64,000 bases of DNA from Terrimonas sp. (lineage in GTDB: Bacteria; Bacteroidota; Bacteroidia; Chitinophagales; Chitinophagaceae): contig NZ_QCZJ01000008.1 of the NCBI RefSeq assembly GCF_003075435.1, positions 124,001 through 188,000 of the forward strand, given 5' to 3'. The position numbers and the translations under genes are program-made. Shown piece by piece: positions 16,022 to 35,850 of this stretch (within the stretch, counting starts at the first letter, position 1; each line of letters opens with the position of its first letter). The notes beneath the pieces are model-generated. The model saw only the letters and a list, made by a program, of their open reading frames with translations, did no database searches and was not told where the DNA came from.

Positions 16022-16070
16022 CAAAATTACAGCATGGGTTTAACTAGGTCAATAGCTAAAACAGGCTATT
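16022..16070 (-). promoter_or_regulatory. Regulon promoter 1: palindrome plus TTG-N20-TAnnTTTG
   Basis: The palindrome AATAGC-N8-GCTATT occupies 16051-16070 (perfect half-sites). In gene direction the next base is G, making TTG, and exactly 20 bases further is the -7 box TAATTTTG (16022-16029). The same layout with identical spacing occurs at 18512-18560, 20307-20355, 26902-26950 and 35802-35850. It drives the DUF4136/outer-membrane-protein operon leftward, with a leader of about 240 bases. Confidence 0.85.
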
Positions 16071-16103
16071 GTCTATAAAATATATAAAGCATGTCACCTG
16101 ATA

Positions 16104-16547
16104 TTATATCTTTTCAGCAATATCCCACCAGTAACCAAAAGGGTCTTTAAGTCGTGCTTTTAAATCACCCCAGAATTGTATTTCAGGTTCAATTAAAATT
16201 ATGGCGCCAGCATCTCGCATTTCCGTTGTCATTTTTTTTACATCATCTGTGTATAAATAAAAAATGAATGAAGGTACCTGGTTTGTATTAACCGGGGAAA
16301 GACGTGTAGAATTCTCCTCCGCTTTATTTACTATAAAATTTGAACCACGGTATCGTATGCGTGCAAAAAGCAGTTCACCATTATCATCCTCCAGTTCAAA
16401 AATTGATACCATTTTCATAACCTCTGTATAAAAAGATACAGCTTTGCAAACATCTTCCACGTAAATAGAAGTTGTAAGCCAGTTTAGTCCAGGCCAAGGA
16501 TGAGGTCGTTGCTCAACATTATCAAACCAGTTTATGTTCTTCATCAT
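16104..16547 (-). CDS. VOC/glyoxalase superfamily protein
   Basis: A 147-residue cytoplasmic protein with paired VOC modules: NWLTTSIYVEDVCKAVSFYT at the first strand-helix, an Arg/Tyr-rich second strand, then PSFIFYLYTDDVKKMTTEMRDAG and the ending RLKDPFGYWWDIAE, which is the common PhnB/glyoxalase-like tail. Metal ligands are incomplete compared with true glyoxalase I, so a binding or resistance protein is as likely as an enzyme. The start may be either of two adjacent ATG codons (16547 or 16544). It is a single gene, 34 bases from regulon promoter 1 but upstream of it, so not controlled by it. Confidence 0.85.
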   Translation of the reverse strand: MMKNINWFDNVEQRPHPWPGLNWLTTSIYVEDVCKAVSFYTEVMKMVSIFELEDDNGELLFARIRYRGSNFIVNKAEENSTRLSPVNTNQVPSFIFYLYTDDVKKMTTEMRDAGAIILIEPEIQFWGDLKARLKDPFGYWWDIAEKI

Positions 16548-16797
16548 TCATATTAATTTAATAACCAATAAAAAGTAATTTAAACAATAATACCCACTTG
16601 ACACCTATTTGGAACAATAGTTATAATAATTGCGACAAGAATAGTTAAATACCCATTAAACACAGGTAGCGAAATAAAATGGACGCCACTATTATAGTGA
16701 CGTCCTGGTCAAGGGATAAACGGATTACCTAAACCGTCCCGAATCAAATAATTATAGTAGCATTATTTCATCTCCCATTCTCCCATATCGATCCAAT

Positions 16798-17511
16798 TTA
16801 TGCGGCGGCCTGAGTGGGAGGTAATATAGGCGCATCTGTTGCAGAATTTTGCTGCTGCACCTGGGGAGGATCATTTTCTTTTGTTTTAAGCACAAGATAT
16901 GTTGCACTGCTAATACCGGTAAGTGCAAGAAGGGTATCACTTAGCTCGGGTAAAGCTGACACTGCATCAGCACCAGCCAATTTGTATAAGTATACAATGA
17001 TTGCTATCATAGTCCATGCAAAGTTTTGAAACCGATGCAGACTTATTCCATTATCATCCGAAAGAATGTCTATGAAAAAGCCCTTCGATGGCCTGTTCTG
17101 ATGGCGAGGACGGTTATCATTGATCTCATTTTTATCGATAACAGAAGATGCTACAGTGGTACCGGCAAAGATTCCCATTAACACTAATGCCGTCTTATTG
17201 ATAGAATCAAGATTGAGATCACCTTTGCAAAGTGATAAATAAATATAAGCAGATGCAATAATTACTGTCCAGATACCAAACTGTACTTTCGTAAGACTAA
17301 ATGGAGCATTTGTATGAGAGAGTTTCCATTTTTTATTTTGCTGCAATTGTTGCGCATTTGAATCGAAAGCATCCTGGTCACTAATCTCCTCACGAAGCAG
17401 GTTGCTGTAAACAGCAAGAATAAAAAATACAAAGCTGATCAGCGCAATTGAAGCATACATAATTATATGCCTGGCATCGGTAAGCGCTGGGTTGAACAAT
17501 AAAGATGTCAT
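16798..17511 (-). CDS. Multi-TM membrane protein, unrecognised
   Basis: A 237-residue protein with about five hydrophobic segments (around 17-38, 80-98, 106-122, 163-182, 190-208) and a Gln/Pro/Ala-rich tail. Conserved-looking pieces are FSLTKVQFGIWTVIIASAYI, GIFAGTTVASSVIDKNE and GISLHRFQNFAWTMIAIIVY; the internal similarity FSLTKVQFGIWT... / ISLHRFQNFAWT... suggests a duplicated two-helix unit, each led by an F/L-x-x-x-Q-x-x-x-W motif. No family was recognised. It is the last gene of a three-gene operon (lipoprotein, small helical protein, this protein) under regulon promoter 2. A holin-like or channel role is possible but not shown. Confidence 0.75.
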   Translation of the reverse strand: MTSLLFNPALTDARHIIMYASIALISFVFFILAVYSNLLREEISDQDAFDSNAQQLQQNKKWKLSHTNAPFSLTKVQFGIWTVIIASAYIYLSLCKGDLNLDSINKTALVLMGIFAGTTVASSVIDKNEINDNRPRHQNRPSKGFFIDILSDDNGISLHRFQNFAWTMIAIIVYLYKLAGADAVSALPELSDTLLALTGISSATYLVLKTKENDPPQVQQQNSATDAPILPPTQAAA

Positions 17512-17543
17512 GATATAAATATTTAAAAATTAAAAAATATGTT

Positions 17544-17876
17544 TTAAATTTTGATAAAGGAAGCAATTGTGCCGAGGATTGTATTGATGATGGCATTCTT
17601 AAATTCATCTATACGTATTTCGGTTATGCCGGCTTGTTTGAGCGCTGCTAGTTCTTCAAAAGCAGATTCTTCCTGCAAAAGGAATTCCAGGTCTTCCTTG
17701 GTAAGCGCACCATTTTCTGCTTCCTGCGCCCAGTGCAGCAGGTTCACTTTCATATTGTTAAGTGCGGCCTGCCCTGCTGTTTTAGCTTCTGATAGATAAT
17801 CCTGCAGGGATTGCTTGGCTACACCTTCCACCCCTGATTTTAAGTCTTCGTATATCTGGTCAAAATTGATAATCAT
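17544..17876 (-). CDS. Small helical protein, unrecognised
   Basis: A 110-residue protein without a signal peptide, predicted almost entirely helical (YEDLKSGVEGVAKQSLQDYL, TKEDLEFLLQEESAFEELAA) and with a hydrophobic or amphipathic C-terminal segment (FKNAIINTILGTIASFIKI). This suggests association with a membrane or with the neighbouring membrane protein. It lies 32 bases upstream of that gene and 33 bases after the lipoprotein gene. No family was recognised. Confidence 0.7.
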   Translation of the reverse strand: MIINFDQIYEDLKSGVEGVAKQSLQDYLSEAKTAGQAALNNMKVNLLHWAQEAENGALTKEDLEFLLQEESAFEELAALKQAGITEIRIDEFKNAIINTILGTIASFIKI

Positions 17877-17909
17877 TGTTGAATATTTAAATTTTTAAAA
17901 GATGTTTGA

Positions 17910-18338
17910 TTAATTAGTTACCTGCTGTGGTTTAATTTTTCCACTTTCCAGTTGAGATATCTGATCGAAAGAGGCCCCTATAACAATCTGTGATTCTTTT
18001 ACAAATACATCGTCAAGTTTGCCGTCCTTTTTCCAACGGCTTACAAAACCTCCAAATAAATGGCCCGTGGAATCTTTAAGCAGAACCCACATTTTTTCCG
18101 AAATCATGTTTTTAGGGCGATTCTTTTCGTATTCATAGATTTTGTCAATTTCCGTTTGAACTCTTGCAACTTCATCAGCATGCAAAACGAAACTATCTGT
18201 AGCATGACTCATTACATTTAGCGCATCTACTTTAATTGCGGTAGTTTGCGAATACGCATATTGATCGAATTTGGAAATAGTGGAACAACCTATCAAAACC
18301 AGGAATATTCCAATAATAGTCAAAGATGTTTTTGTCAT
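17910..18338 (-). CDS. Predicted lipoprotein, unrecognised
   Basis: A 142-residue protein with lipobox FLVLIGC (Cys18), a helical stretch (about 50-80, VLHADEVARVQTEIDKIYEY), and a small beta-rich end (about 85-130, MWVLLKDSTGHLFGGFVSRW) resembling an SH3-like barrel. It is the first gene of the operon read from regulon promoter 2, with a leader of about 165 bases. In an operon with a multi-TM protein and under the same control as a signal-less GH19 enzyme, an outer-membrane lysis accessory (spanin-like) role can be imagined, but no sequence feature proves it. Confidence 0.75.
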   Translation of the reverse strand: MTKTSLTIIGIFLVLIGCSTISKFDQYAYSQTTAIKVDALNVMSHATDSFVLHADEVARVQTEIDKIYEYEKNRPKNMISEKMWVLLKDSTGHLFGGFVSRWKKDGKLDDVFVKESQIVIGASFDQISQLESGKIKPQQVTN

Positions 18339-18511
18339 TTCATTCTTTTTATAGTTAAAAATTATATAGTTGCGTTACTCCAAAGCAATGCTTAGGAAAA
18401 AAAACTTTTTTTGTAAAAGATGGAAAAAAATAAAGCAATGAAAAATGAGAATGATTAAGAACCGAATAAGAAGGCCAGATTTTATTGCTTTCCGTTTCCT
18501 GTTTGAATAAG

Positions 18512-18560
18512 CAAATTTATTGCGACTTTCAAAATTGATCAATAGCTATAATAGGCTATT
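18512..18560 (-). promoter_or_regulatory. Regulon promoter 2: palindrome plus TTG-N20-TAnnTTTG
   Basis: The palindrome AATAGC-N8-GCTATT is at 18541-18560 (both half-sites perfect), followed in gene direction by G and, 20 bases on, the -7 box TAAATTTG (18512-18519). It drives the lipoprotein / small helical protein / membrane protein operon leftward. Confidence 0.85.
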
Positions 18561-18767
18561 TAATATAATCATTTGCTTAAAACAAAAGAGCTCATTAACA
18601 CAAAGCAGAGTACTCTAACTTAAATATCTCTAAATAAAAACAAAAAAATCTCTCTCAAATTTTATCAATGTCGATTTGTGTTTAACTCATCTGAATCCTA
18701 GACTATTACAGTAATAGCTGAGGATTTTGCCATAAAAAAGCACATCATAATATCAAAACTGACCATT

Positions 18768-19358
18768 TTAATTACTACTGAAAACAGAAAGCCCCATTTT
18801 ATAACGATGTAGTCTATCTTCCAATCCATTATATCCACCATTAATGCGGCGAGTAATCAATTTAAAATTCTCAAGATTCATTCCTCCATCAATTGGCTGG
18901 TATATATTAATTTTATTGGCTATTGTACTGAGATTTGTTCTCCACCAAAACCAACCAGCACTTAGCGCCGCATACTTCAATTGATCAGGAGAGCACAGAT
19001 GGATATTTTTTCCACCGAGTAAGGTGGGGTTGTTAACAAAGTCTGCTTGTAATGCAGCACTAAGTAGTTGATAATTATTTCTTCCTGTAATTTGTATTAA
19101 CCCACGCCCTTTGAACTTTATACCATCACCAGGATACATATTGCCTAAGTCTTTTCGTCCTTCATATGCTTTGCCGCTAGCGAGTTCTTCCGTATAAAAT
19201 AAACCACCACTTTCATGACTTACCTGTGCAAGAAAACAGAGTTGTTCTACCGGGGTATTAATGTTGTATTTTACAAACACCTCCTTAAAATAAGGTAGGA
19301 ATATTTCAGCATTTGCGTTTGTAGTACAGGCTGCGACCTTTAATTGATTTATTGTCAT
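18768..19358 (-). CDS. GH19-family chitinase/endolysin-like enzyme, no signal peptide
   Basis: A 196-residue catalytic domain with the GH19 core: LCFLAQVSHESGGLFYTEEL (catalytic Glu in HESGG, second acid in the TEEL segment), GRKDLGNMYPGDGIKFKGRG, LIQITGRNNY and WFWWRTN. GH19 enzymes cleave beta-1,4 bonds in chitin or peptidoglycan. There is no signal peptide or cell-wall-binding domain: the protein is a bare domain, as in phage endolysins. It lies 10 bases after the DUF4239 gene and is the last gene of that operon, read from regulon promoter 3. Without a secretion signal it would need a membrane hole or cell lysis to reach its substrate. Confidence 0.92.
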   Translation of the reverse strand: MTINQLKVAACTTNANAEIFLPYFKEVFVKYNINTPVEQLCFLAQVSHESGGLFYTEELASGKAYEGRKDLGNMYPGDGIKFKGRGLIQITGRNNYQLLSAALQADFVNNPTLLGGKNIHLCSPDQLKYAALSAGWFWWRTNLSTIANKINIYQPIDGGMNLENFKLITRRINGGYNGLEDRLHRYKMGLSVFSSN

Positions 19359-19368
19359 AAAAAATCAT

Positions 19369-20178
19369 TTAATTACAAATAATGGAATTGGTTTTCTGTA
19401 AAATCTGCTGTATCTCCATATAAGGCTTGTTGCTTACCTGAATATGTTTATGGAAAGGATGATCAAGTGACCATACCAAAAAGAGGCACATTCCCAGACA
19501 ACCCGAAAAAAACGATAAATATATCCGCTTGAGTTTTAATGAAGCAACATGAAAGAAATATGAAAATACAATGAGTAAAACACTTCCATACTGAAGGATT
19601 TGCCAGACTATACCCGGTATCTGGGAACGATTATGGCTTAACCTACTTCGCCTCAACTCAGTTATCTGGCTTAAATCCTCATCCACTACTTTAAAAACAT
19701 TCCGCTGCAATTCGTTTTTCGGATCAAGTGTCAACAACATCAAACGAATGCAGGGTATTGCGCTCGACTGATTATCAACACCCTCACTTTGCATATTCCA
19801 CTCATCGTCTCTAACCCGCTGACAATAATTGTATAAGGCTTCATGAATTGGTTGGCGTATAGAATCAGGCATCGTAGAAATATGAGTAATAATATTATTC
19901 ATCTTATCAGATTCAGCCTGTATCTCCTTTTCAAGATCTTCGTATGCTTCCCATGCTGCCACTATTACAAATGCAAGTATTAATGAATAGATAAGACTGA
20001 TAGCACCAAACATTACACCCGCCACCTCATTATTTGGGAGTAGTTTCGTATGTCGATGCCATTCGTTAAAAATATATAACCCTAACAAAGAACATAAAAT
20101 GACTACTGTTACAAATAGAAAACATAGTAACCACGATGGCATCAAATTGGTTATATCATTAAATGTTGCAAGTAGCAT
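19369..20178 (-). CDS. DUF4239 (bestrophin-like) membrane protein
   Basis: The start is placed at the ATG at 20178 (269 residues); an upstream TTG at 20208 would add 10 residues of poor signal character. Two N-terminal TM segments (about 12-35 and 52-75, the latter GVMFGAISLIYSLILAFVIV, typical of DUF4239) lead into a cytoplasmic or periplasmic helical region of about 110 residues. Two C-terminal TM segments follow (about 195-215 and 220-240). The family is distantly related to bestrophin-type anion channels, but function is not established. It is the first gene in the operon with the GH19 enzyme, under regulon promoter 3. Confidence 0.85.
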   Translation of the reverse strand: MLLATFNDITNLMPSWLLCFLFVTVVILCSLLGLYIFNEWHRHTKLLPNNEVAGVMFGAISLIYSLILAFVIVAAWEAYEDLEKEIQAESDKMNNIITHISTMPDSIRQPIHEALYNYCQRVRDDEWNMQSEGVDNQSSAIPCIRLMLLTLDPKNELQRNVFKVVDEDLSQITELRRSRLSHNRSQIPGIVWQILQYGSVLLIVFSYFFHVASLKLKRIYLSFFSGCLGMCLFLVWSLDHPFHKHIQVSNKPYMEIQQILQKTNSIICN

Positions 20179-20306
20179 ATAATATATTTTAGCTTCTGGT
20201 AAATACAACCAGACCGATTAAAAATGATAAAAGGGAAATAAGAAAACAAGTGAGAAATGGTTAGCTAAGTGTGATTAATTGCTCGTGTATCTCCTTGTCG
20301 GTAACA

Positions 20307-20355
20307 CAAAATTAGAAAGGGGAGATGTGCATCGCAATAGCTAAAACATGCTATT
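20307..20355 (-). promoter_or_regulatory. Regulon promoter 3: palindrome plus TTG-N20-TAnnTTTG
   Basis: The palindrome AATAGC-N8-GCTATT is at 20336-20355, followed in gene direction by G and, 20 bases further, the -7 box TAATTTTG (20307-20314). It drives the DUF4239-GH19 operon leftward with a leader of about 120 bases. Confidence 0.85.
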
Positions 20356-21591: not shown

Positions 21592-24500
21592 TCAAATCTC
21601 TGAAACAGGTTTTGTTTTGATTTTGTGGATATAGTCGCCCGGTGTAAGACCGTACAATTCCCGAAAGCATTTGGTAAAATAAGCGGCACTACCAAAGCCT
21701 GATTTATAAGCAGTTTCAGAACTGCTGAAACCTTGCTGTAAGAATAAAGTTGCTTTTTTCAAGCGATAGTTGCGTACCACCTCGGTAGTAGATAACCCAG
21801 TAAGGGCTTTTAATTTTCGGTGTAAGCTGCTTCGACTGATATTCATAATACCAGATAATTGATCTACTCCAAACAATGCATCATCCATATGCTCCTCGAG
21901 TAATGAATACAATTTTATTAGGAAAATATCTTCTACCACTAGCTCAGGTTCTTGCACCTGTTGACCAGAAGACAACAGTACGCCCTGAAGGAAGTGATCC
22001 CTTAGCCTTTGTTGCCTGGCAAGCAGGTTTTGTATACGCAATATTAATTCAGCAGGATGGAAAGGTTTGGTAAGATAGTCATCGGCTCCTATAGAAAGCC
22101 CTTCTATAAGATGCTCATGTGCCGTTTTTGCAGTAAGCAAAATTACAGGAATATGTGCTGTTCGGATATCTTCCTTGATTCTTGAAGTAAATTCAAAACC
22201 ATCCATTATAGGCATCATTACATCGCTGATAATCAGATCGGGCATGGCCGAAAGTGTATATTCCAACCCTTCTGCTCCATTTAATACATGTATTACGTGA
22301 TACCGCTCGTCTCTTAATATATCCATTACAAAAGCTGCCAGCTCTGTGTTATCTTCTACTAGTAATACATGAGTTGTATTGTCTGCAGTAGCAGCCTTTT
22401 CTTCAACCGGCAGATCAGAGTAAGCTTTAGATGCAGTTATCCCCCATTTAACGGGTTCTGCCTCTCGGTATGGCAACAACAATCCAAAACGAGTTCCGGA
22501 AGGAGCTGTTACCTGGCTCTGAACCTCTATCTCACCCTGCATCTGATTCACCAGTTCCTTAACCATTGCTAAACCAATACCGGTACCTTTATCAGTAGTT
22601 TCTTTCGCAAGCCCGGTAATGCTACCAGCTTGGTAAAAACGGTCAAAAATAAAAGGTAATTTTTCTTCAGCAATGCCTATACCAGTATCAGTAACCGCTA
22701 ACTGTAGTTGATTGTTTTGTGCGGTAAGGAGCACCTCCACCCGTCCAGTTGCAGGTGTAAATTTTAGTGCATTTGAAACAAGGTTGTATACAATACGTTC
22801 TACTGCATCAGGATAAAACCAGCAATCGGTTAAACCCGATTGATCTGCAAAAAACAGATCAATCTGTTTTGATTCTGCATCGTTTTCAAAAGAATGAACC
22901 ACTGCACCTACTACGTTTCCGGGACTACCCCTTTGTTCATGCAGCTTCATAGCTTTTGCTTCCAACTTTGACAGATCCATAAGCCGGTTAATCAATATGA
23001 GTAATTGTTTGGCATTACGTAAAATTATATCTGCCAGGCTATTTTGTCTGCCTGCGTCCACACTAGCAGTTTTTAATTGTTCTGCTGGGCCCAGTATCAG
23101 CGTAAGCGGCGTACGAAATTCATGGGTAATATTAGAAAAAAACCTGGATTTCATATCGCCCAGTTCTTTTAGTTGCTGGGTTTCTTTTTCCTTCAGCAGC
23201 ATTTCTTTCTGCAACACCGCTCTAGTTACTTTAAACCGGATGAACGTCCATATCAACCCGGCAATGATAATACCGTAACATAGGTATGCCATCCAGGAAG
23301 CCCACCAGGGCGATTTTATCTTGATGCGAAGTGTTTTAATATAAGGACTCCATTTGCCTGTGGTATTACTTGCATTTACAAGTAAAGTGTAATTGCCTGG
23401 CGGAATTTTAGTATAATCTGCTTCACGGTCTTTACCCGCTATAACCCAGTCTTTATTGTAACCTTCCAACTTATACCTGTACAATAAGTCCTGCGGTTGG
23501 GTATATTCTAGTCCTGCAAAACTAAAACTAAGCGTATTTTTTTCATATGGCAAAACCAGTTGCTGTGTTGCATTTAGTGGAACAGCCAGGTAGTTATCCT
23601 TATCTGATATAGCTATTTCTTTATTGTTGATCTTTAAATTGGTGAGAGCAACAACAGGTTTATAATCATCGTCTTTCATAGAGAGTGGATCAAATTTGAT
23701 CCAGCCTTCTGTACCGCCAAACACAAGGTGCCCATCGGGGAGCCTTAGATGGTGAAACCGGTTAAACTCCTCACCCGGTAATCCATGTTGGGTTCTGAAT
23801 ATACGCAGGTGCTTGGTGCGCGTTTCAAACTTGCAGATTCCCCGATTGGTACTAAACCATAAATTACCAACAGAGTCGTTTAGGATAGAATAAATAGTAT
23901 TATCCGGCAGGTTTTCTGCTAGTGAAAACACCTCGCATTGCTGTTTGCTTTTGTCGAAGCGAATCAATCCCTGGTAACTACCTATCCACAAAATATTAGT
24001 GTTAGCAGGGTCAGGATGAATGCTTAATAGTTGGTTAGTAGGCAGTGAGCCACGTTTATGCTCCTCTTTGAACTGTTGTATTTGTTTACTGCTTAAATCA
24101 ATTTGCAGCAATCCATCGTTTTCTGTGGTAATCCAGCAATATTTGCTATCGGCACATATATCCAACGGCAGAAATAATTCGCCAAAACGATCTCTTAACA
24201 CATGTGGCTCAATAAACGGCTGCCACTTTGAAGATTCAAAATGATATACAAACATCCTGCCATTGAATCCAATAATTAATGGAGAGCCGTCCGCAACGGT
24301 GGTGATGCCTTTGATGCCAATTCCTTTTTCTGAATCACTATCGGTAATCGGCACACGAGGCAGTGATACGGGTTTCCTTTGATCCCAGTCGTAATAACAT
24401 ACATACTCTTTTAAAGCGAGGTACAAACGTTGTTTAGAATCGTAAGTACTTCTTAAATGATAGCTTCTTGAAGTAAACACCTGATCGCCGGGCGTCCAGT

Positions 24501-25635: not shown

Positions 25636-25647
25636 GCTATAAATATA

Positions 25648-26283
25648 TTATACTATATTTTTCTGTAGTGCTGTGGCTACCGCTTCGGAGGCACTATGCA
25701 CTTGTAATTTGTGATAAATATTCTTAATATGATTATTAACCGTAAAAATGGAGATGTTGAGTTGTGCGGCTATCATTTTATGACTAAACCCTTTTACCAT
25801 ATGGGTGAGTATATCCATTTCTCTTTTGGAAAGATTATAGTCTTCATTATTTGAAGTACTTTTTTTAGAGCCGAAATGTTGCAATACACGACGGGCAATA
25901 GTGGGTGTCATAGGGGCACCCCCACTCACCACATCACGAATGGCTTCAGTAATTTTGTTATTAGGTGTTTTTTTGAGAATGTATCCATGCGCCCCTTCTT
26001 GCAGACATCTAAAAAGATTATCATCATCGTCAAAAACGGTTTGCATAATAATCAATACCTGAGGGTAATGCTGTTGTAACAATTTAACACCTTCAATACC
26101 GTTTACCCTTGGCATGTTAATATCCATAAGAACCACATCAGGCGCTTCAAGAATAAAATCTTCAACTATACCAGAACAGTCTTTGAAGTCGCCGATGCAA
26201 ACCATATCCGTTTCCAGACTTATAACTAATTTAAGTGCTTCACGCCTTTCAGCATGATCGTCAAATACCGCAATTTTTATCAT
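25648..26283 (-). CDS. NarL/LuxR-type response regulator
   Basis: A 211-residue regulator with a receiver domain (D8/D9, phospho-acceptor D54 in VVLMDINMPRV, Lys in the ILKKT motif) and a C-terminal LuxR-type HTH (about 148-205; LSKREMDILTHMVKGFSHKM, IAAQLNISIFTVNNHIKNIY). It is the first gene of an operon with the hybrid sensor, but that protein has its own receiver and output. Regulators of this class usually pair with NarX/HisKA_3 kinases, and the only one in the window is at 40657-43737. It is the leading candidate to bind the shared 20-bp palindromes, because LuxR-type dimers use sites of that size overlapping the -35/-33 box (inference). Confidence 0.95.
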   Translation of the reverse strand: MIKIAVFDDHAERREALKLVISLETDMVCIGDFKDCSGIVEDFILEAPDVVLMDINMPRVNGIEGVKLLQQHYPQVLIIMQTVFDDDDNLFRCLQEGAHGYILKKTPNNKITEAIRDVVSGGAPMTPTIARRVLQHFGSKKSTSNNEDYNLSKREMDILTHMVKGFSHKMIAAQLNISIFTVNNHIKNIYHKLQVHSASEAVATALQKNIV

Positions 26284-26901: not shown

Positions 26902-26950
26902 AATGGCTCATTTAAGCTATTGTCACTGGTTTTGTCTAAAGGTACTTTTG
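26902..26950 (+). promoter_or_regulatory. Regulon promoter 5: palindrome plus TTG-N20-TAnnTTTG
   Basis: The palindrome at 26902-26921 reads AATGGC-N8-GCTATT (one mismatch in the left half-site), followed by G and, 20 bases on, the -7 box TACTTTTG (26943-26950). Spacing is the same as at the other four sites. It reads into the first array gene with a leader of about 180 bases. Confidence 0.8.
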
Positions 26951-27137
26951 CAATGTAACCTATGGATGCGAATAACAGAATGCTGTAATTGATATAACTC
27001 TGCTACTACGCTACAACAGATCGCTCACAACTTGATATCACTTATACATCTGCAAAACTGAGCCACCTATGGATAGAAAGTATAAGGATGCTGCTGCATG
27101 CTAGGATATACTATTGTTCGAAAACAACAAAATATTT

Positions 27138-28760
27138 ATGATAGAAAATATAAAATTTAAAATAATTAACGCGACATCAGAACTACCGAAGGATATAGTA
27201 GTGATAAATGCTTCAGTTAAATCTGATAATCCAAAAACGTTTTATTATGATCAGGATATTAGCATTGTTCCCTTCGTGTCAAACAATACTTTCCTTAAGT
27301 CGGGTAATGTTGATGAAATCATTATTCCTGATGTTAAAAGAGATGATAAAGGAAACAGTCTTCCTTATACTTTTATTATAGCAGAAGCACAAACACTCGC
27401 TCCAATAAAATCAGTAACGTTCAAGGCAGACCTGTCTGACTTGGCGGAGTTTACTATTAATGATTTAACCATAAATAAAATTGATGTAGTATTTGATTTT
27501 AATAAAAACATCACAGCACTACCAACTTCTGAACTGGCATCGGAATTTGCCGTTTTAGATTACACAAACGATGAAGCGACCAAGGAATATTTTGCTAAAA
27601 CAAAAAATTACAAGGAGGTTACATTGGATGACTGGTACCTCATTCGCAGTTATTATAACGCATTGCCTTATGGCTGGGCTAATGGAGAAGATCTATATAT
27701 ATACCTCTATGATGGAAGTTTTAAGGACAACCTGGATACAGATATAGCCAAAGCAATTGGTACAATTAAAATAACCAACAATTGGTCGTTACCGCTGCCC
27801 TTGGATAAATCCGATGAATTTAAAGTAGAAATTCAATTACACGATGGCATTGTAAAAAAAATGTTTTTTGACAATGGAGTTTTTTATGATACTGAAGAAA
27901 TAGAGACTGCCAGAGTGCGTCTCGCCGGTTCTTTTATTATTCCAGATCAAATTACTACTGAGCATAAAAAAAATGAAATAGTCACATTTCTCCCAGGTAC
28001 CATTAATAGCATTCAGGCATTTGGAATTGCGGGGGATGCGCCAAAGGAAGGACGGCAAAATGATGGCGGCTTTCTTGGCCTGTTCGATACGCAAACCGTT
28101 GAACAAGTAGGCATCCTCGGAATGTGTTTTATCGGCATTGGTATAGGAATCGGCATTTTGGTGAGGCTCGGGCAATTTATTAATTGGTATAAAAAATACG
28201 GTAATCCGGCTATTTCCCAGCAAGAGAGATATGCCCAAACAGAAGCGCTGAAACAATACATAAAAGAACAAATGGTACAGCTTACATCTAATATCCATGA
28301 ATCTGTTAAAGTTCCTATGCAAAGTGAAATACCGGTAGCGCAGCAGGTGTTTAAAACCTATCAGCTAGAACTCAAAACTTATCAGGCTAAAAATAACATT
28401 CGCCAAATGGCAGATGCGCAATCCTATGCTTTGGAATTGATAACAGATAAATATGTCAGTAAAGATTTGGAAATAGCTTCAGATAACCTGATAAGGGTCG
28501 GAGAAAAAATTGCGTGTGGCGATGTGAGTGATTTTGAAGGCTGGGTTAGCGAGTCATTGAGTATTCTTGATCACAATGTAGCTACAATTACAGCTGCATA
28601 TGTTTTCATTGCAAGCGAACTCTATGCAAGTGAAGTAAAGGCTTACAAGAAGTTTATGAAGACATGCGATGATGCACGGATTATTTTAGAGAAAAATCAG
28701 AAAGAAGTGAAAGATATTAATTCCGGAGCGGATGAACGTGAAATTATTGAAGAGGAATAG
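27138..28760 (+). CDS. Array protein 1: conserved N-module, mid-protein TM, helical tail
   Basis: 540 residues from the ATG at 27138 (a TTG at 27114 lies further upstream). No signal peptide is seen. The N-terminal part (about 1-320) is beta-rich, starting IINATSELPKDIVVINASVK and FYYDQ; it contains FDFNKNITALP and the array signature RSYYNALPYGWANG (Ser at 171). A single strongly hydrophobic segment (about 323-342, GILGMCFIGIGIGIGILV) is followed by LGQFINWYKKYGNPAISQQE, a long charged helical region (about 360-525) and an acidic tail (DEREIIEEE). No known family was recognised. It is first in a run of four plus-strand genes; the next starts 76 bases later. Confidence 0.88.
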   Translation: MIENIKFKIINATSELPKDIVVINASVKSDNPKTFYYDQDISIVPFVSNNTFLKSGNVDEIIIPDVKRDDKGNSLPYTFIIAEAQTLAPIKSVTFKADLSDLAEFTINDLTINKIDVVFDFNKNITALPTSELASEFAVLDYTNDEATKEYFAKTKNYKEVTLDDWYLIRSYYNALPYGWANGEDLYIYLYDGSFKDNLDTDIAKAIGTIKITNNWSLPLPLDKSDEFKVEIQLHDGIVKKMFFDNGVFYDTEEIETARVRLAGSFIIPDQITTEHKKNEIVTFLPGTINSIQAFGIAGDAPKEGRQNDGGFLGLFDTQTVEQVGILGMCFIGIGIGIGILVRLGQFINWYKKYGNPAISQQERYAQTEALKQYIKEQMVQLTSNIHESVKVPMQSEIPVAQQVFKTYQLELKTYQAKNNIRQMADAQSYALELITDKYVSKDLEIASDNLIRVGEKIACGDVSDFEGWVSESLSILDHNVATITAAYVFIASELYASEVKAYKKFMKTCDDARIILEKNQKEVKDINSGADEREIIEEE

Positions 28761-28836
28761 AAAAGAAATATTGTTATATCAGTTTACACAATTACACATA
28801 GTCATTAAATATTTATTCAACATTAAATCAACAATC

Positions 28837-30474
28837 ATGGCAAATTCAGCATGGAAGGTTACCAATGGCACAACAAAAAAGAATATTGTAGTCATTAACG
28901 CTTCTGTAGACTCAGACTCGCCAAAAGCGTTTTATTACGATCAGAAAATTACTTTGCTCTCTTTTGCTTCAGCTAAAGTTTTAGCACCGGGCAATAGTGA
29001 CACCATTACTTTACCCGATGTTAATAAGGACAACAGCGGTTACAATCTGCCCTTTACATTTATAATAGCTGACGCGGAAACGCTGGTTCCTCTTAAATCG
29101 GTAACATGCAAGGCAGACCTTTCCGACCTTAAGGACTTGATCGTTGACGATAGTGCTGTAAGTGATATAGCCCAGAGTTTTGACTTTCATAAAAATATTG
29201 CAGCAGTACCGGGCTCCGAACTGGCAATTAATTTTGCAGCCCTTGACCTGGCGGATGAAAAGGCAGTCAGCAATTTTTTTAATAGCACAGATGATTATAA
29301 AAAAGTTACGTTGGACGCCTTGCACCTGGTACAAAGCTACTACAACGCCTTACCATATGGATGGGCAAACGGAAAAGACACTGTTATTTACCTGTACAGC
29401 AAAAAAGATGATGACGGATCAGAAGAAGGTACTTTGAGGTCTATCGGTACAGTTAAGATCACCAACGACTGGTTGCAGCCGGTTCCTGTTACCCCAGCGG
29501 ATCCATTCAAGCTGGAATTGAAATTAGATGGAGAAGATGCAAAACCTTTATACTTTAATAAAGGAATTTTTAGAGATACTCAGGATGCCAGCAAGGCAAA
29601 GATATGCCTGGCAGGTTCATTTTTTATACCGAGTTTACTTTTAGATGAAGAAGGCAATGAACAGATGTCCACATATTTAGTAGGCAGTAAAAATGGCATT
29701 AGTGTATTTGGATTTGAGAGCGTTGAGCCTGATGGTATTAATGATGATGGGAGCTTTTGGAAATTACTGGATGTAAATAATTTCAGGGATGGATTTACCC
29801 TGGCAATGTATGGAGTTGGTATAATTGCTGCCATAGCACTGCTGGTTAAGCTCGGACAATTTTTAAAATGGTGCAAAGAACGAGGTAACCCCGCCATTGA
29901 TGCAAAGCAGAGAGCCGCACAGGCAGAAAAACTTGAGGGAGAGCTTATTACTGAAATTCGTAACGAGGTACAACAGGTAAATGACGATATTATCGTTCCT
30001 CAGCACGACAATATTCAGCCGGCCCAAGCTGATTATAACGTCGAGCAGCTTCGGACAAAAACAAACCAGGGATTCAGGAATATACAGAGAATGTCGGCCG
30101 CCCAGGAAAAAATTTTGCTGGCGATAGGATCAAAATGTTCAAGTGCCGTTTTGGAAGACATAACAGATTGTATAGAGCTGGTTAGAAAAAAATGTTTTGC
30201 TTTTGATACGGCAAATCCTCAAAGCGTTACGGAATTTCGTTCACAGATGCCTGACATCGTAAAGATGTTGAGAGAAAACGCGTCCCGAATTGTTCTTGCA
30301 AAAACAATGGCCATAAAAAGGTTAACTACCACGGAACTGAATGGCTATGAAAGAGCAATGGAAACGTTCGATAACATATTTACTGCGCAGCAAAGGCTGG
30401 ATAAAGAAATAAAAGACGTTGAGGAAGGAAGGGATGAAAGGGAAATTATTGAAGACCCCGTTATTGAAAATTAA
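28837..30474 (+). CDS. Array protein 2: conserved N-module, mid-protein TM, helical tail
   Basis: 545 residues from the ATG at 28837; the frame extends upstream into the previous gene, but the start MANSAWKVTNGTTK aligns with array proteins 3 and 4. Same plan as array protein 1: beta-rich N-part with VVINASVDSDSPKAFYYDQ, FDFHKNIAAVP, QSYYNALPYGWANGKD (Ser at 167), an SLLLDEE-containing strand region, TM about 318-338 (LAMYGVGIIAAIALLV), KLGQFLKWCKERGNPAID, then a helical region and acidic end (DEREIIED). Closest relative is array protein 3. The gap to the next gene is 35 bases, so cotranscription is likely. Confidence 0.88.
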   Translation: MANSAWKVTNGTTKKNIVVINASVDSDSPKAFYYDQKITLLSFASAKVLAPGNSDTITLPDVNKDNSGYNLPFTFIIADAETLVPLKSVTCKADLSDLKDLIVDDSAVSDIAQSFDFHKNIAAVPGSELAINFAALDLADEKAVSNFFNSTDDYKKVTLDALHLVQSYYNALPYGWANGKDTVIYLYSKKDDDGSEEGTLRSIGTVKITNDWLQPVPVTPADPFKLELKLDGEDAKPLYFNKGIFRDTQDASKAKICLAGSFFIPSLLLDEEGNEQMSTYLVGSKNGISVFGFESVEPDGINDDGSFWKLLDVNNFRDGFTLAMYGVGIIAAIALLVKLGQFLKWCKERGNPAIDAKQRAAQAEKLEGELITEIRNEVQQVNDDIIVPQHDNIQPAQADYNVEQLRTKTNQGFRNIQRMSAAQEKILLAIGSKCSSAVLEDITDCIELVRKKCFAFDTANPQSVTEFRSQMPDIVKMLRENASRIVLAKTMAIKRLTTTELNGYERAMETFDNIFTAQQRLDKEIKDVEEGRDEREIIEDPVIEN

Positions 30475-30509
30475 TCTTCTTTTTTTTTAAAACAATCAAA
30501 TTATTAGCA

Positions 30510-32162
30510 ATGGTAAATACAACATGGAAAGTTACCAATAACACGACAAAAATTAGTTTGGTAATCATCAATGCATCGGTTGATTCAGATGCTCCTCAAG
30601 CATTCTATTATGATCAAAGTACTTCGCTGCTTCCTTTCTCAGCGTCGAATATTTTAGCACCAGGCACCAGCGATACGATTACTGTACCTGACATAAACAA
30701 AGACAAAAATGGATATAGCCTTCCTTTTACATTTATTGTGGCTAATGCTATAACCCTTGCTCCGCTGAAAGCGCTAACATTCAAAGCTGACCTTTCGGAT
30801 ATCAGAGAACTTAGTATAGACGATACTACGCTGAGTGATATTGCTGCTGTTTTTGATTTTAATAAAAACATTACGGCATTTCCGGCATCTGAATTGGCAA
30901 CAGAATTTGCTGCAATTGATTTTTCCGATGAAGCTGCAGTAAATGAGTTCTTTGCTGTTCATGAAGATTATAAAAAGGTTACATTGGATGCTTTGCACCT
31001 GGTACGCAGCTATTACAATGCTTTGCCGTACGGTTGGACCAACGGGAAAGACACTACTATTTATTTGTACAGCGGCGATTATGAAAATGTATCTGACACA
31101 GAAAAAGTAAGATCAGTCGGTACTATAAAAATTACAAATGACTGGACACAGCCACTTCCCCTAAGTGTTCCTGACATATTCAGCATGCAGATAAAACTTA
31201 ATGACGATAGATCAAGGAAGTTGCTATTCAAAGATGGCGCTTTCTGGGACTCTGCCAACACATCATCAGCGAAAGTTGCCTTAGCGGCTTCATTTGTAAT
31301 TCCAAGCCAGTTAACGCTTGATGATGCAAGTAATAAAATCTGTACATCACTCACCGGTACATTAAATGGAAAAGATGCGTTTGGGTTGGAAGGTGTTTCT
31401 CCAACCGACCCTGACGGTAACGGTGGTTTTTTGGAATTATTTGATGTGCATAGTTTTAAAGATGGACTTACACTTGCCATGTATGGTATAGGCATTGCCG
31501 TTGCGATAGGACTGCTAGTTAAACTCGGCCAGTTTATAAAATGGTGTAAAGATTATGGCAATCCAACTATTGACCAGAAGGAAAGAGCTGCACAAACAGA
31601 GGAACTTAAGTTGCAAATTGATGAAAAAGCCCGATTGGTGGTAAGCAAGGTAAATGAAATGATAGGTATTCCTAAACCAGAAGACATTCCCGCCAACCAG
31701 CAAGCTTATAGCGAGCAACAGTTAACCAGCAAAACACTTCAGTCTATAGAGAATGTAAAGAAGATGCTGGCTGCCCAGACTGATCAGTTAGCAATTGTCG
31801 GGGATAATTTTACAACAGGAGACATGCAATTGCTGGCAGACAATCTTGGGCGGGTACAACTCAGGATAGATAGAGGAACAAGCCCTGAAGCACTTGCGCA
31901 GTTTCGTACAGACTTAAAAGATACTTTAGATATACTTAGCATTAACAACACCAGCATATTTGTTGCTAAAACTAAAATAAACAATTTGTTAGTCAGTGAA
32001 GAAAGAGTGGCATACGACCGGGCATTTGAAGCCTTTGATTCCACGCGGCGTATACAGGAAAGGATAAGAGAGGAAATTGAAGAGATTCAGGCTGGCGATG
32101 ATGAGTTGGAAATTATTGATGATGAGGGTGCCGGACCCAGCGAGCCTATCATTGAGAGATGA
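30510..32162 (+). CDS. Array protein 3: conserved N-module, mid-protein TM, helical tail
   Basis: 550 residues. MVNTTWKVTNNTTK opens the module, followed by INASVDSDAPQAFYYDQ, FDFNKNITAFP, and RSYYNALPYGWTNGKD (Ser at 167). The segment WDSANTSSAKVALAASFVIP corresponds to the WDS... strand of array protein 4. TM about 318-338 (LAMYGIGIAVAIGLLV), then KLGQFIKWCKDYGNPTIDQK, a helical region and an acidic end (DDELEIIDDEGAG). No signal peptide is seen. A very strong hairpin terminator (32215-32262) follows the stop and separates this gene from the 1148-residue protein gene. Confidence 0.88.
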   Translation: MVNTTWKVTNNTTKISLVIINASVDSDAPQAFYYDQSTSLLPFSASNILAPGTSDTITVPDINKDKNGYSLPFTFIVANAITLAPLKALTFKADLSDIRELSIDDTTLSDIAAVFDFNKNITAFPASELATEFAAIDFSDEAAVNEFFAVHEDYKKVTLDALHLVRSYYNALPYGWTNGKDTTIYLYSGDYENVSDTEKVRSVGTIKITNDWTQPLPLSVPDIFSMQIKLNDDRSRKLLFKDGAFWDSANTSSAKVALAASFVIPSQLTLDDASNKICTSLTGTLNGKDAFGLEGVSPTDPDGNGGFLELFDVHSFKDGLTLAMYGIGIAVAIGLLVKLGQFIKWCKDYGNPTIDQKERAAQTEELKLQIDEKARLVVSKVNEMIGIPKPEDIPANQQAYSEQQLTSKTLQSIENVKKMLAAQTDQLAIVGDNFTTGDMQLLADNLGRVQLRIDRGTSPEALAQFRTDLKDTLDILSINNTSIFVAKTKINNLLVSEERVAYDRAFEAFDSTRRIQERIREEIEEIQAGDDELEIIDDEGAGPSEPIIER

Positions 32163-32214: not shown

Positions 32215-32270
32215 GTGGAAATAGCCTACCTGCATGAAACGATGCAGGCAGGCTATCTCCACTATTTTTT
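32215..32270 (+). terminator. Strong hairpin terminator inside the array
   Basis: A stem of about 21 bp with two mismatches (GTGGAAATAGCCTACCTGCA paired with the matching arm ending ATCTCCAC), a six-base loop and a TATTTTTT tail. It lies 52 bases after array protein 3. No -7 box was found between it and the next ATG (32312), so the next gene is probably reached by read-through, at lower expression. Confidence 0.8.
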
Positions 32271-32311
32271 ACGCCCACCCTTCACCATTTTTTACTTCAA
32301 AAAAAAATATA

Positions 32312-35300
32312 ATGTCAACAAGCACTACTATACCAGCCATTTCATTTGAGAATGACCTGGATTATGATATTATCATTTATGATTCTTTCGGAGATGATGA
32401 AACGGACTCTGACGACAACACAGATGATAATTATTTTGGAACGCTTACGTCACTGGGAACAGTAACGGCGAGATCAACATCAAGTATTCAACCTATTCAC
32501 AGTACATCAGCTTTCATAGTAGAAAACAAATCAACTCAAAAGCCTGTGAAACGGTGTACAAAAATGTCCTTTCAAAAAAACATTACCTCATTTGTGGTAA
32601 ATCAGGATGATGAAGACGCTATGACAGCGGTCTTTAAATTCATAGACTTTTATCTGAAAAACCCCAATGATGATATGTCGAAAGCTTTTACCGCAATCTT
32701 AAATGAAGATTCAAGCAACTGGTTTTCGGATATTCCTGATTTCTTTTCAAAATATCCTGCTTATTCAAAATGTACCTTCCCGGATTATATGATGGGGATT
32801 ACTTATAATGCTATGAACCCACCACCAGTGCCATCCTCAAACCCTTCTTCGCCGCCTCCACCGCCAACCTACTCATTAAAAAAACTTACCCTAGCAATGG
32901 GAGCTCAATGGCCGGAAGGATTGCCGGATATAGCTGTATCAAATTTTTCCTGCACCAATAAGAATAGCAATATATTAATCGTTGCCGAAATTGATATTGC
33001 GGGGTTGTGTTTTGAATCGGACGTTATTGCAAGGAATGTAACTACCATCATGGGGGGAGATAAGAAATTTACAGTTGCCATTCAATTTAATTATGCAGTT
33101 AGCCTAGGTATTTTTGGTACCAGACTCAGTTTTTTACCAGAAAACTTCAGTATTCCAGTAGGCGGTAATAATTCCATATCGGTAACAAAGCCCGCCATCA
33201 CTTTTGATATCAATCCTCTTTTCAAGTTTGTGCTGTTTACTTTAAAAGGCACCATTCCTTTTAATATCAATAATAAAACCTTTGATGCATTAGTTTCAGT
33301 AGCGGTAGATAATGATGAAGCATCTATAGGAGTTACCATTGAAGGTGACCATGGTTCTCTTCCTGCTCCTCCTGGCTTAAAAGGGCTATTCTTTGATGAG
33401 TTTGGTGTTGGTATTGGTGTATTCTTTGAACCACTTTCCTGTATTATTGGCATTGACGGCAAGTTTCATATTGGCAGTAACAACAGCATTGTATCGCTGG
33501 ATGATGATACGTTTGCCCTGGTGTGCAAAATTACCGGTGATGCAATTACACCGGCATTTGCATCCTTCTATATACCAAAACTTGATCTGGATACTGTCAT
33601 CGCACTCTTTACCAATGTAAATGTACACCTCGACGTTCCTGTATCATTTGAGGATTTGTCATTTCGTTGGGTAGACTCTTTAATGTCAGGATATGTAATG
33701 CCCGATGGCACCCTTTCCGATAGTGGATACGGTTTTTCTGCAGCCTGCAACATCGGTTCTTTCGGTTTTTATGGCGACGTGGAACTCGATTTGAATAATG
33801 GGCTTACCGCCAATGTTGAGGTATCACCCATTAACTGGAAGAATGTTTTCAAACTTACTGGAGATGGAAAAGGATTTAATATTAAGGTGGATCCTCATGG
33901 TAATCCTATCCGCAACAATTTTGTTCCCACTACACAAGAAGAAAAGAATGCTGTTGCCAATGCCACCGAAAAGATAATTACCACACCAGGGGGGGCCTGC
34001 CTTATCATCAATACATTAAGTATGCCCATTCTTCACCTTAATGCAAAGGCGAGTTTGTTTGACCTGCTCGAATACGATATTACAGCAGATATTAATAAAG
34101 ATGGTATTAAGTTCGAACTTGACTTTGGTGCCGTACTAATGGAAAAAATGGTATGTAACCTTACCGACTTTCATAACCTTTATGCAGAATTTGGTTATTA
34201 TATCGATAAATCGATACCATTGCCCAAGATGGCTGGAGTAAATATAGGATCTATTCCCTTAAAGGCTGATGCAGCACTTCACTTATCTGTTAAAACATCG
34301 CTTACGGATATTGTGATCTCTACCGGTGGAAAATTTGACTTTGAAGATTATCATTTCACTTTTGGTGATTTTACCGTTGATATTAGTATCAGCAAAATAA
34401 CCGACTTTCTTGGCGCGGTTGTTCAATATCTCATTGCTGAAGCAGAATCAATTTTTTCTACTGTAATTGATTCTGCTGAGCATTGGGCTGTAGCTGCAGG
34501 CAAGGGCATCGTTACGGAGTTTGATGATGCGGGTAAAGTAATGAATAACGTCTACAAAAAAGCAAAAGAAGATGTTCCAGCTATACTGAAAACAGCGGGT
34601 TTTGCGGCTAACGACATAGCAAAAAGCTTAAAGAATGGTTATAGTGCCACCCAAAAAGATATTGCGGTTGCATTGAAAGCAGTCGGATATTCTGCTGATG
34701 ATATTACAAAAAGTTTGAGAAGTGCCTTTGATGCTACTACAAGCGCCGTTGCTGATGCTCTAAAAACAGCAGCTTTTTCAATATCGGAAGTGGCTAAAGC
34801 TATAAAGATCAATTGGAACGCAGCACAAGTAGATATTGCCTGGGCCATGATGATGGTAGGTTATACACAAATAGAAGTGGCCAATGGATTGAGAGGTGCA
34901 TTCGACGCTACCACAGATAGTGTTGCTGATGCGATGAAAAAAGTTGGTTACAAAGCAGAGGATGTGGCTGTAGCGATCAAGGGGGCGTGGGGTGCTTTGC
35001 AAACCGATGTATCCTGGGCTATGATGATGGTGGGATTCACAGAAACAGAAGTTGCTAATGGACTGAGGAAAGCGTTTGATGCAACTACTGACAGTGTTGC
35101 TGATGCCATGAAGAAAATTGGTTACAAAGCAGAAGATGTAGCCATAGCCATTAAAAATGCATGGGGAGCTCTACAAACTGATGTAACCTGGGCCATGATG
35201 ATGGTAGGGTTTACAGAAACGGATGTAGCTAAAGGATTACGAAAAGCGTTTGACGCTACTACTGATAGTGTTGCTGATGCGATGAAAAAAATTGGTTATA

Positions 35301-35758
35301 AAGCAGAAGATGTAGCGAAAGCAATCAGGAATGGATGGAATGCTGAGGAAAAGGATGTAACCTGGGCTATGATGATGGTTGGATTTGCTGCCAATGATAT
35401 ATGCAAGGGATTACAAAGTGCTTTCGGTTCGGGTTCACAAGCTGTAGCAAATGCTTTTAAAATAATCGGGATAAGAGCACAGGATACAGCCAATGCTGTT
35501 AAGGTTGTATTAAGTTCCACCATTAATGAAACAGCGGCTGTATTAAAACAGGCTGGTTATGCAGCCAATGATGTAGCCTCCGCTCTTGGAAATGCTTTTG
35601 GTGAAGGGGCGAGTGCTGTAGCCGATGCCATGAAACAAGTAGGTTATGCAGCGAATGATGTAAAAAATGCCTTTGAAGAGGTGGGAGGCGACTTTAAAAA
35701 TTTTGCTGAGAGTGCATGGAATGACGTAAAGAATGCATTCAATCCCTCCAATTGGTAA
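32312..35758 (+). CDS. Large array protein: diverged N-module, beta-rich middle, 13 helical repeats
   Basis: 1148 residues from the ATG at 32312 (the frame extends 26 codons upstream into the terminator arm, which is unlikely to be translated). The N-part (1-168) is a diverged copy of the array module: FENDLDYDIIIYDSF, then FQKNITSF, a DFFSKYPAYSKCTF stretch and YNAM at 165-168, matching KNITAF...DYKKVTL...YNAL in the other array proteins. A Pro-rich linker (about 169-184) leads into a long beta-rich region (about 185-720) with Gly/Asp-rich strands and no recognised family. The end (754 to about 1105) is a repeat array of roughly 29-residue helical units. No signal peptide or TM segment is evident. 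Confidence 0.85.
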   Translation: MSTSTTIPAISFENDLDYDIIIYDSFGDDETDSDDNTDDNYFGTLTSLGTVTARSTSSIQPIHSTSAFIVENKSTQKPVKRCTKMSFQKNITSFVVNQDDEDAMTAVFKFIDFYLKNPNDDMSKAFTAILNEDSSNWFSDIPDFFSKYPAYSKCTFPDYMMGITYNAMNPPPVPSSNPSSPPPPPTYSLKKLTLAMGAQWPEGLPDIAVSNFSCTNKNSNILIVAEIDIAGLCFESDVIARNVTTIMGGDKKFTVAIQFNYAVSLGIFGTRLSFLPENFSIPVGGNNSISVTKPAITFDINPLFKFVLFTLKGTIPFNINNKTFDALVSVAVDNDEASIGVTIEGDHGSLPAPPGLKGLFFDEFGVGIGVFFEPLSCIIGIDGKFHIGSNNSIVSLDDDTFALVCKITGDAITPAFASFYIPKLDLDTVIALFTNVNVHLDVPVSFEDLSFRWVDSLMSGYVMPDGTLSDSGYGFSAACNIGSFGFYGDVELDLNNGLTANVEVSPINWKNVFKLTGDGKGFNIKVDPHGNPIRNNFVPTTQEEKNAVANATEKIITTPGGACLIINTLSMPILHLNAKASLFDLLEYDITADINKDGIKFELDFGAVLMEKMVCNLTDFHNLYAEFGYYIDKSIPLPKMAGVNIGSIPLKADAALHLSVKTSLTDIVISTGGKFDFEDYHFTFGDFTVDISISKITDFLGAVVQYLIAEAESIFSTVIDSAEHWAVAAGKGIVTEFDDAGKVMNNVYKKAKEDVPAILKTAGFAANDIAKSLKNGYSATQKDIAVALKAVGYSADDITKSLRSAFDATTSAVADALKTAAFSISEVAKAIKINWNAAQVDIAWAMMMVGYTQIEVANGLRGAFDATTDSVADAMKKVGYKAEDVAVAIKGAWGALQTDVSWAMMMVGFTETEVANGLRKAFDATTDSVADAMKKIGYKAEDVAIAIKNAWGALQTDVTWAMMMVGFTETDVAKGLRKAFDATTDSVADAMKKIGYKAEDVAKAIRNGWNAEEKDVTWAMMMVGFAANDICKGLQSAFGSGSQAVANAFKIIGIRAQDTANAVKVVLSSTINETAAVLKQAGYAANDVASALGNAFGEGASAVADAMKQVGYAANDVKNAFEEVGGDFKNFAESAWNDVKNAFNPSNW
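34571..35671 (+). repeat. Coding tandem repeat, 174-base (58-residue) superunit
   Basis: About 13 units of 27-31 residues alternate between two types: ADAMKKIGYKAEDVAIAIKN followed by AWGALQT, and DVTWAMMMVGFTETEVANGL followed by RKAFDATTDSV. The pair makes a 58-residue (174-base) superunit that is best conserved over about 34790-35400, where DNA copies are nearly identical. Outer units are more diverged. Each unit looks like a helix-turn-helix hairpin with the core G-(Y/F)-x-x-x-(D/E)-V-A-x-(A/G)-(L/I). Copy number could change by recombination. Confidence 0.9.
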
Positions 35759-35762
35759 CATT

Positions 35763-35795
35763 CAACAGGGGGCAATCCTATGGGGTTCCCCGTTG
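35763..35795 (+). other. Hairpin after the large array protein gene
   Basis: CAAC-A-GGGG pairs with CCCC-GTTG around a 16-base loop directly after the stop codon. There is no T run, so termination is uncertain; it could protect the 3' end or end transcription weakly just before regulon promoter 4. Confidence 0.4.
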
Positions 35796-35801
35796 CTATA
35801 A

Positions 35802-35850
35802 AATAGCCTGTTTAAGCTATTGAATAGTGTAAAACACCATATTAAATTTG
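35802..35850 (+). promoter_or_regulatory. Regulon promoter 4: palindrome plus TTG-N20-TAnnTTTG
   Basis: The palindrome AATAGC-N8-GCTATT at 35802-35821 (both half-sites perfect) is followed by G and, 20 bases on, the -7 box TAAATTTG (35843-35850). It gives array proteins 4 and 5 their own promoter, with a leader of about 200 bases. Confidence 0.87.

Follow-up and report, generated by a model that had tools for sequence, protein, structure and literature searches.

Five intergenic places in a 64,000-nucleotide stretch of a Terrimonas sp. genome (contig NZ_QCZJ01000008.1, positions 124,001 to 188,000; hereafter the window, from whose first base all coordinates are counted) carry a 20-bp palindrome fused to a promoter, and the locus raises the question of which protein reads this palindrome and to what effect. 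Very probably the palindrome serves as operator for a response regulator of the NarL/LuxR family, the product of the minus-strand gene at 25648-26283, and this regulator would be driven by a sensor kinase and would activate an envelope module. The argument is built from sequence, namely from the sites, their spacing, their confinement to one locus, their association with orthologues of the regulator and the covariation of recognition helix and operator in one species, and from these we infer phosphotransfer, binding, activation rather than repression, and the signal.

The sequence-only reading of this DNA had described five palindromes of the form AATAGC-N8-GCTATT, and all five are present, four of them exact and the one at 26902 with one arm mismatch (AATGGC). 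As that reading also had it, the palindrome is followed in gene direction by a G, 20 further bases and an exact TAnnTTTG in 5/5 sites. Three sites lie on the minus strand: operator 1 (AATAGCCTGTTTTAGCTATT, 16051-16070) upstream of the DUF4136-outer-membrane protein (OMP) operon, with the -7 box TAATTTTG at 16022-16029 and the -33 TTG at 16050-16052; operator 2 (AATAGCCTATTATAGCTATT, 18541-18560) upstream of an operon for a lipoprotein and proteins of 110 and 237 amino acids (aa), with the -7 box TAAATTTG at 18512-18519; and operator 3 (AATAGCATGTTTTAGCTATT, 20336-20355) upstream of the DUF4239 (bestrophin-like)-GH19 operon, again with TAATTTTG, at 20307-20314. On the plus strand, operator 4 (AATGGCTCATTTAAGCTATT, 26902-26921; -7 box TACTTTTG, 26943-26950) precedes array genes 1-3 and the gene of a 1174-aa protein, and operator 5 (AATAGCCTGTTTAAGCTATT, 35802-35821; -7 box TAAATTTG, 35843-35850) precedes array genes 4-5 and a gene for a 349-aa protein. 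The palindrome and the -33 TTG overlap by two bases, the last two of the former and the first two of the latter, and all five sites combine this TTG with the exact TAnnTTTG of a Bacteroidota promoter. The sigma-ABfr promoter of Bacteroidota is given in PMC7366714 as TAnnTTTG at -7 with TTTG at about -33; the promoters here have the same TAnnTTTG and TTG and differ from it by the operator fused to the -33 box.

A genome-wide scan had been proposed together with the motif. Over the 6,175,289 bases in 82 contigs, the full composite of palindrome, G, N20 and TAnnTTTG has five exact matches, all of them at this locus, against 0.00022 expected per genome from the base composition of the window, and a chance origin of the five sites is rejected. 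The looser AATRGC-N8-GCTATT is found at these five places and at two non-palindromic places elsewhere. When up to three mismatches are allowed in the composite there are 13 places, comprising the five exact ones, one opposite-strand reading of the 35802 site and seven elsewhere with two or three mismatches each (the best has two), and the reversed-pattern control gives six. Of the bare palindrome at two mismatches the window has only slightly more copies than expected (27 and 17.4 +/- 4.9, respectively; 3 of 100 shuffles reach 27).

Sites from the window and related loci together (47, one of them an opposite-strand reading and one the weak site of locus L151) refine the operator to AATAGCYT-N4-ARGCTATT, with 8-base arms and with G directly 3' of the palindrome in 39/47. 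The distance from operator to -7 box is 21 in 41/47, 22 in four and 20 in two, counts that are partly circular, and to that extent speak against our reading, because the pattern by which some loci had been found fixed the spacing, or the count admitted distances of 20-22 only. When any distance between 5 and 45 was accepted, in stretches retrieved independently of the composite, 21 was seen 13 times in eight stretches and 11 times in five named stretches, with every other distance at most twice in both cases. If the centre of the TTG is set at -33, the operator is nominally centred at about -42.5, and it touches the upstream promoter box at near-fixed spacing, as a class II activator site does. 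This position suggests class II activation, which we favour because LuxR-type activators of that class occupy the same place. In those systems the lux box near -42.5 is likewise a 20-bp palindrome abutting the upstream box at near-fixed spacing, whereas their promoters have the usual sigma-70 -35/-10 elements and those here the Bacteroidota -33 TTG and -7 TAnnTTTG. In the mechanism we propose, the propeller-type sensor kinase encoded at 40657-43737 would phosphorylate the regulator upon an envelope signal, the regulator dimer would bind AATAGCYT-N4-ARGCTATT overlapping the -33 TTG, and the bound dimer would contact RNA polymerase and turn the housekeeping promoter on. The envelope module that would thereby be co-expressed consists of the lipoprotein, the 110-aa, bestrophin-like and 237-aa proteins, the GH19 hydrolase, the DUF4136/OMP pair and the large array proteins.

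The same regulator could also use the same operator for repression, its dimer covering the -33 box and blocking the polymerase until phosphorylation alters or removes it. Some response regulators repress, and the overlap with two bases of the -33 TTG counts against activation, as a site touching this box could serve repression. However, a repressor does not need the near-constant distance between operator and promoter that was found with free spacing and in 41 of the 47 sites, and LuxR/NarL-type activators sit at about -42. Repression by this regulator is thus unlikely in our judgement.

The regulator proposed as activator has a receiver domain (REC; PF00072, E 1.8e-21) with D54 within VVLMDINMP, and a C-terminal GerE/LuxR helix-turn-helix (HTH; PF00196, E 1.1e-18) with the recognition helix TVNNHIK. 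It matches VraR (E 1.8e-28) and NarL (1a04, E 2.3e-24) over receiver and HTH, nearly at full length. The architecture is that of the NarL/FixJ (LuxR-type) regulators, and a palindromic operator is as expected of a dimer; the heptamers of NarL are unlike AATAGCYT-N4-ARGCTATT, and by our own reading of the sequences the NarL helix has K-V where N-N stands here.

Comparison across genomes (G numbers; L numbers denote loci) names this protein as the predicted reader of the operator, an assignment that is well supported. The site was present at 10/10 examined loci whose regulator is at least 60% identical, including 6/6 of those whose retrieval did not depend on it (G223, G355, G270, G271 and G230 through the regulator, G304 through the 237-aa protein). 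Among loci with regulators of 42-55% identity, 33/35 were without it when two arm mismatches and one promoter mismatch were allowed, and the other two are ambiguous: L151 (55.5%) has two weak sites, and in L148 the site has a 60% regulator of the same contig about 3 kb away. Paralogues in six site-bearing genomes (G000, G058, G084, G077, G223 and G304) are among the site-free loci. The 40 stretches fetched around regulator matches of falling identity are a part of all matches, which spread over 206/384 genomes of the family and 93/395 of the phylum. At one mismatch at most, the composite was found at 34 places in 21 of 195 family genomes (reversed pattern, one place), 16 of them in five genomes with a regulator orthologue of at least 55%. 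Whole-genome scans of eleven genomes, four of which (G007, G058, G077 and G084) had originally been found through the composite, gave 36 places with two mismatches at most, two being opposite-strand readings; 27 of the other 34 are inside the regulator cluster, and the reversed pattern gave four. In G007 the 55% regulator is on another contig than the single site, which leads the gene of a giant protein; over 2220 residues this protein shows 48% identity to a site-led giant protein of G230.

In other genera, too, the kinase and the same core genes are clustered with the regulator (G058, G084 and G077). When named genomes were searched with the 237-aa protein, 13 loci were obtained, four already known (G304, G084 and two in G077) and nine new; among the new ones, 6/6 from genomes in which the regulator was found (57-67%) have the site or a compensated form of it. 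Kinase and regulator are both present in Hufsiella and at three Mucilaginibacter loci, together with AATAGC-type sites of which some have one or two mismatches in the arms; under the strict joint threshold of the variant scan L095, L193 and L198 score no AATAGC site, yet one or two are there when two mismatches are allowed. Three Pedobacter stretches, in which the relatives of the 237-aa protein are 51-54% identical, contained neither a regulator orthologue (32% at best) nor a site within the stretch. In the same Pedobacter stretches (L194-L196, about 6.3-8.1 kb) five tandem open reading frames (ORFs) of 88-95 aa stand beside the 237-aa relative in all three genomes. The contigs of L191 and L193 are titled 'Williamsia sp. 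isolate E01' and carry Bacteroidota-type genes, and this record name looks wrong. The proposal that one regulator serves the five operons is well supported by the confinement, by the association with regulator orthologues and by joint clustering in Dyadobacter, and the comparison with related genomes that had been suggested along with it shows the site accompanying these orthologues through several genera and beyond the family.

The kinase gene (40657-43737, minus strand) encodes a Reg_prop propeller, Y_Y_Y, HisKA_3 (PF07730) and HATPase_c, and its product is probably the partner of the regulator. A kinase relative lies directly upstream of the regulator in 13/16 regulator loci, called by BLAST relation to the window kinase, and 12 of these 13 are at least 45% identical. 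The relative in G223 (L145:10757-12441) consists of two adjacent open frames, the larger 56% identical. The site itself precedes the regulator gene in 14/16 regulator loci; the kinase gene of the window has none ahead at the thresholds used. Polysaccharide loci have hybrid two-component systems (PMC11253607). The hybrids, too, have propeller and Y_Y_Y sensor domains, whereas here kinase and regulator are separate proteins and the regulator is of LuxR type instead of AraC type.

Several observations weigh against this assignment of regulator and kinase. The two genes are 14 kb apart in the window, and their pairing is read from the relatives; the D. flavalbus (Dyadobacter flavalbus) stretch is without such a kinase, the kinase of G058 is in the cluster but not adjacent to the regulator, and the adjacent one in G230 is only 33% identical. 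The regulator genes of the window and of L189 have no site ahead of them. The remaining 18 of the 34 composite places in the family are found in 16/190 genomes without an orthologue of at least 55%, and a second copy of three core genes in G077 is without a site. Finally, the covariation described below is that of a single species with an altered helix.

This species, D. flavalbus, has a 57% identical regulator with the recognition helix TIDRH, where the others have TV[NSH]NH (TVNNH in the window), and its operators are of the type AATACC-N8-GGTATT, one of them with a mismatch (AATACC...GG[TG]ATT), where AATAGC-N8-GCTATT is found elsewhere. These operators, AATACCCTAAATAGGGTATT and AATACCCTAAATAGGGGATT, precede the regulator gene and the lipoprotein operon, with exact -7 boxes at distances of 22 and 21 bases. 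The AATACC composite is absent from the other 27 stretches scanned, which in part overlap, and the D. flavalbus stretch is without an AATAGC composite. The two altered residues correspond, in our own reading of the sequences, to K188 and V189 of NarL, which contact DNA. Asparagine as second helix residue is shared by 15/15 regulators with AATAGC sites and by that of the borderline L151, and by 0/35 of the other regulator genes compared.

The helix code may, as a suggestion, extend to a sister subgroup of paralogues with the helix TVN[ST]H (N-S, in one case N-T). De novo palindromes for paralogous regulators numbered three against 0.8 expected in block-wise mononucleotide-shuffled sequence, and a consistent sister operator came from this subgroup only: AATCATTG-N4-CAATGATT, which six genomes have in the neighbourhood of regulator or kinase genes when one mismatch at most is allowed. 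Eight of its 15 places are near such genes and seven away from them (reversed pattern, two), in a scan that left out other regulators with N-S or N-T helices (e.g. L184 and L154); G212, of the same subgroup, has no sister palindrome at one mismatch. Sister-operator loci are L155, L161, L171, L148 and L175 (G320, G070, G058, G271 and G568), and in some of them the palindrome keeps the same spacing to a -7 box. In L058 (G165:C14; 2527, 4477, 7263 and 7801) and L059 (667), four composites of the type TATAGC-N8-GCTATTG (one with CATAAC) precede successive genes of one cluster, perhaps as the regulon of another regulator.

These comparisons bear also on an AraC-type hybrid sensor (21592-25635), whose gene, central in the locus, comes after the regulator gene in the direction that both share, and which could itself read the palindrome, as in a hybrid two-component system regulon. 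A 50% relative stands beside one site of G084, but this is the only relative of at least 45% among the site-bearing stretches compared, while the LuxR-type regulator is found in nearly all of them, and the specificity change in D. flavalbus tracks the LuxR-type helix; the hybrid sensor was therefore rejected as the reader, a role we hold to be very unlikely for it. That the sites are a mobile or repetitive extragenic palindrome-like element spread by duplication and without regulatory role, as several near-identical copies in one region might indicate, is extremely improbable and was rejected, because the spacers (1-8 of 20 bases shared pairwise) and the 40 upstream bases (5-15 shared) are unrelated and the sites look like no copies of a longer duplicated segment, because all five precede operons at a fixed distance from the -7 box, and because the arms change symmetrically in D. 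flavalbus.

The proposed regulation by the LuxR-type protein is further illustrated by Dyadobacter sediminis, in which one site-led operon holds the lipoprotein, 110-aa, bestrophin-like, GH19 and 237-aa genes, with the regulator outside that stretch. A second palindromic place, the one among the matches listed that, besides the known operator, fits the 8-base arms (with one mismatch), lies between a kinase (49%) and the regulator orthologue (60%), its -7 box 25 nucleotides ahead of the latter; this place was picked for its fit to the arms among the matches listed and is a prediction with a choice. Three further palindromic places examined had no -7 box at 20-22, and one is near the end of a 674-aa ORF. 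Two P47/TULIP-like proteins (PF06597; L188:10735-14311) close the site-led operon.

On the minus strand of the window, the predicted targets are the genes of a DUF4136 protein (15118-15774, PF13590) and an OMP_b-brl outer-membrane protein (14482-15090, PF13505) in operon 1; of a 142-aa lipoprotein-like protein (17910-18338), the 110-aa protein (17544-17876) and the 237-aa predicted membrane protein (16798-17511) in operon 2; and of a bestrophin-like, formerly DUF4239, membrane protein (19369-20208, PF14023) and a GH19 endolysin-like hydrolase (18768-19358, PF00182; phrog_181 endolysin, E 6.6e-45) in operon 3. The three proteins of operon 2 and the bestrophin-like protein form the conserved core. 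The plus-strand targets are array proteins 1-3 (548, 580 and 550 aa; 27114-32162), which are paralogous and of no known family, and the 1174-aa repeat protein (32234-35758) in operon 4, and array proteins 4-5 (552 and 586 aa; 36060-39596) and the 349-aa protein (39596-40645), third in its operon and with a 31% relative in the D. flavalbus cluster, in operon 5. In D. flavalbus a single cluster contains the regulator, lipoprotein, 110-aa protein, GH19, two array proteins, the 237-aa protein and proteins of the 1174-aa and 349-aa types, and the scattered operons of the window therefore look like one module. All eight other sampled genomes of the genus lack the 237-aa protein and five places in other genera have it (63-72%), a distribution that may reflect loss of the module or lateral transfer.

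A hydrolase gene belongs to a site-led operon in six genomes (the window, D. sediminis, G058, Hufsiella, M. aquaedulcis and Mucilaginibacter sp. SMC90), and the hydrolase would by inference be under the control of the regulator in all six, the sites in Hufsiella and SMC90 being weak (two mismatches). The families differ: GH19 in the window and in D. sediminis (71% to that of the window), glucosaminidase in G058, GH108 in M. aquaedulcis and CHAP in SMC90, to which the Hufsiella product is 74% identical. D. flavalbus and G223, which are not counted among the six, have GH19-containing hydrolases in their clusters, and no peptidoglycan hydrolase was found among five ORFs scanned in G084. Other site-led genes encode P47-like proteins (PF06597) in D. 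sediminis, pairs of 580/1200-aa proteins in G304 and Mucilaginibacter (a similar pair is in the G058 cluster), SusC/SusD in G270 and large surface-like proteins in G355, G271 and G230. No signal peptide was seen by eye in the array and 580/1200-aa proteins.

When core and array proteins were compared with NCBIfam, PHROGs and PADLOC, GH19 as endolysin was the sole strong match, and the rest were weak apart from one that we doubt: most of the lipoprotein is covered by a match to the PADLOC Csx23 profile (E 2.7e-8), and a link to CRISPR effectors is doubtful. The AlphaFold-type model of the lipoprotein is a helical bundle (predicted local distance difference test, pLDDT, 85) without a PDB match with E up to 0.001; neither had the model of array protein 4 (mean pLDDT 59.8), and a search for related loci with an array-protein alignment found none. 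Among the proteins searched none matched a holin or spanin family, although membrane proteins and the lipoprotein are present. In this the module is unlike the holin-endolysin cassettes of type 10 secretion, which it resembles in joining an exchangeable, co-regulated hydrolase with small membrane proteins, a lipoprotein and large signal-less proteins.

The target genes may belong to an export or lysis system that has not been described so far. A wider view, which we hold tentatively and rather doubt, is that the regulon governs a new export or controlled-lysis system of Bacteroidota with a fixed membrane core, one hydrolase that is exchangeable (GH19, glucosaminidase, GH108 or CHAP) in the manner of phage lysis cassettes, and large signal-less cargo varying by species, together with a phylum-wide LuxR-type code in which helix residues set subfamily-specific 20-bp palindromes at a fixed -33 place. 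The putative cargo would be the array proteins here, the P47/TULIP-like proteins in D. sediminis and the 580/1200-aa pairs in Mucilaginibacter. In the open-licence literature, among the matches listed, we came upon no account of the regulator, its operator, the operator variant or the target module, nor of an operator of a separate LuxR-type response regulator in Bacteroidota. Beyond the sequence-only reading, the locus is now described as a two-component regulon with a LuxR-type operator; this adds a proposed regulator and kinase, a likely mode of activation and the finding that relatives carry sites in front of their regulator gene. A motif noticed by eye has thereby been joined to a named regulator, as a pair open to direct tests, and the swap of operator and helix in D. 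flavalbus offers a natural experiment on specificity. The shared membership of a membrane core, an exchangeable hydrolase and large signal-less proteins suggests an envelope machine that has so far gone unrecognised.

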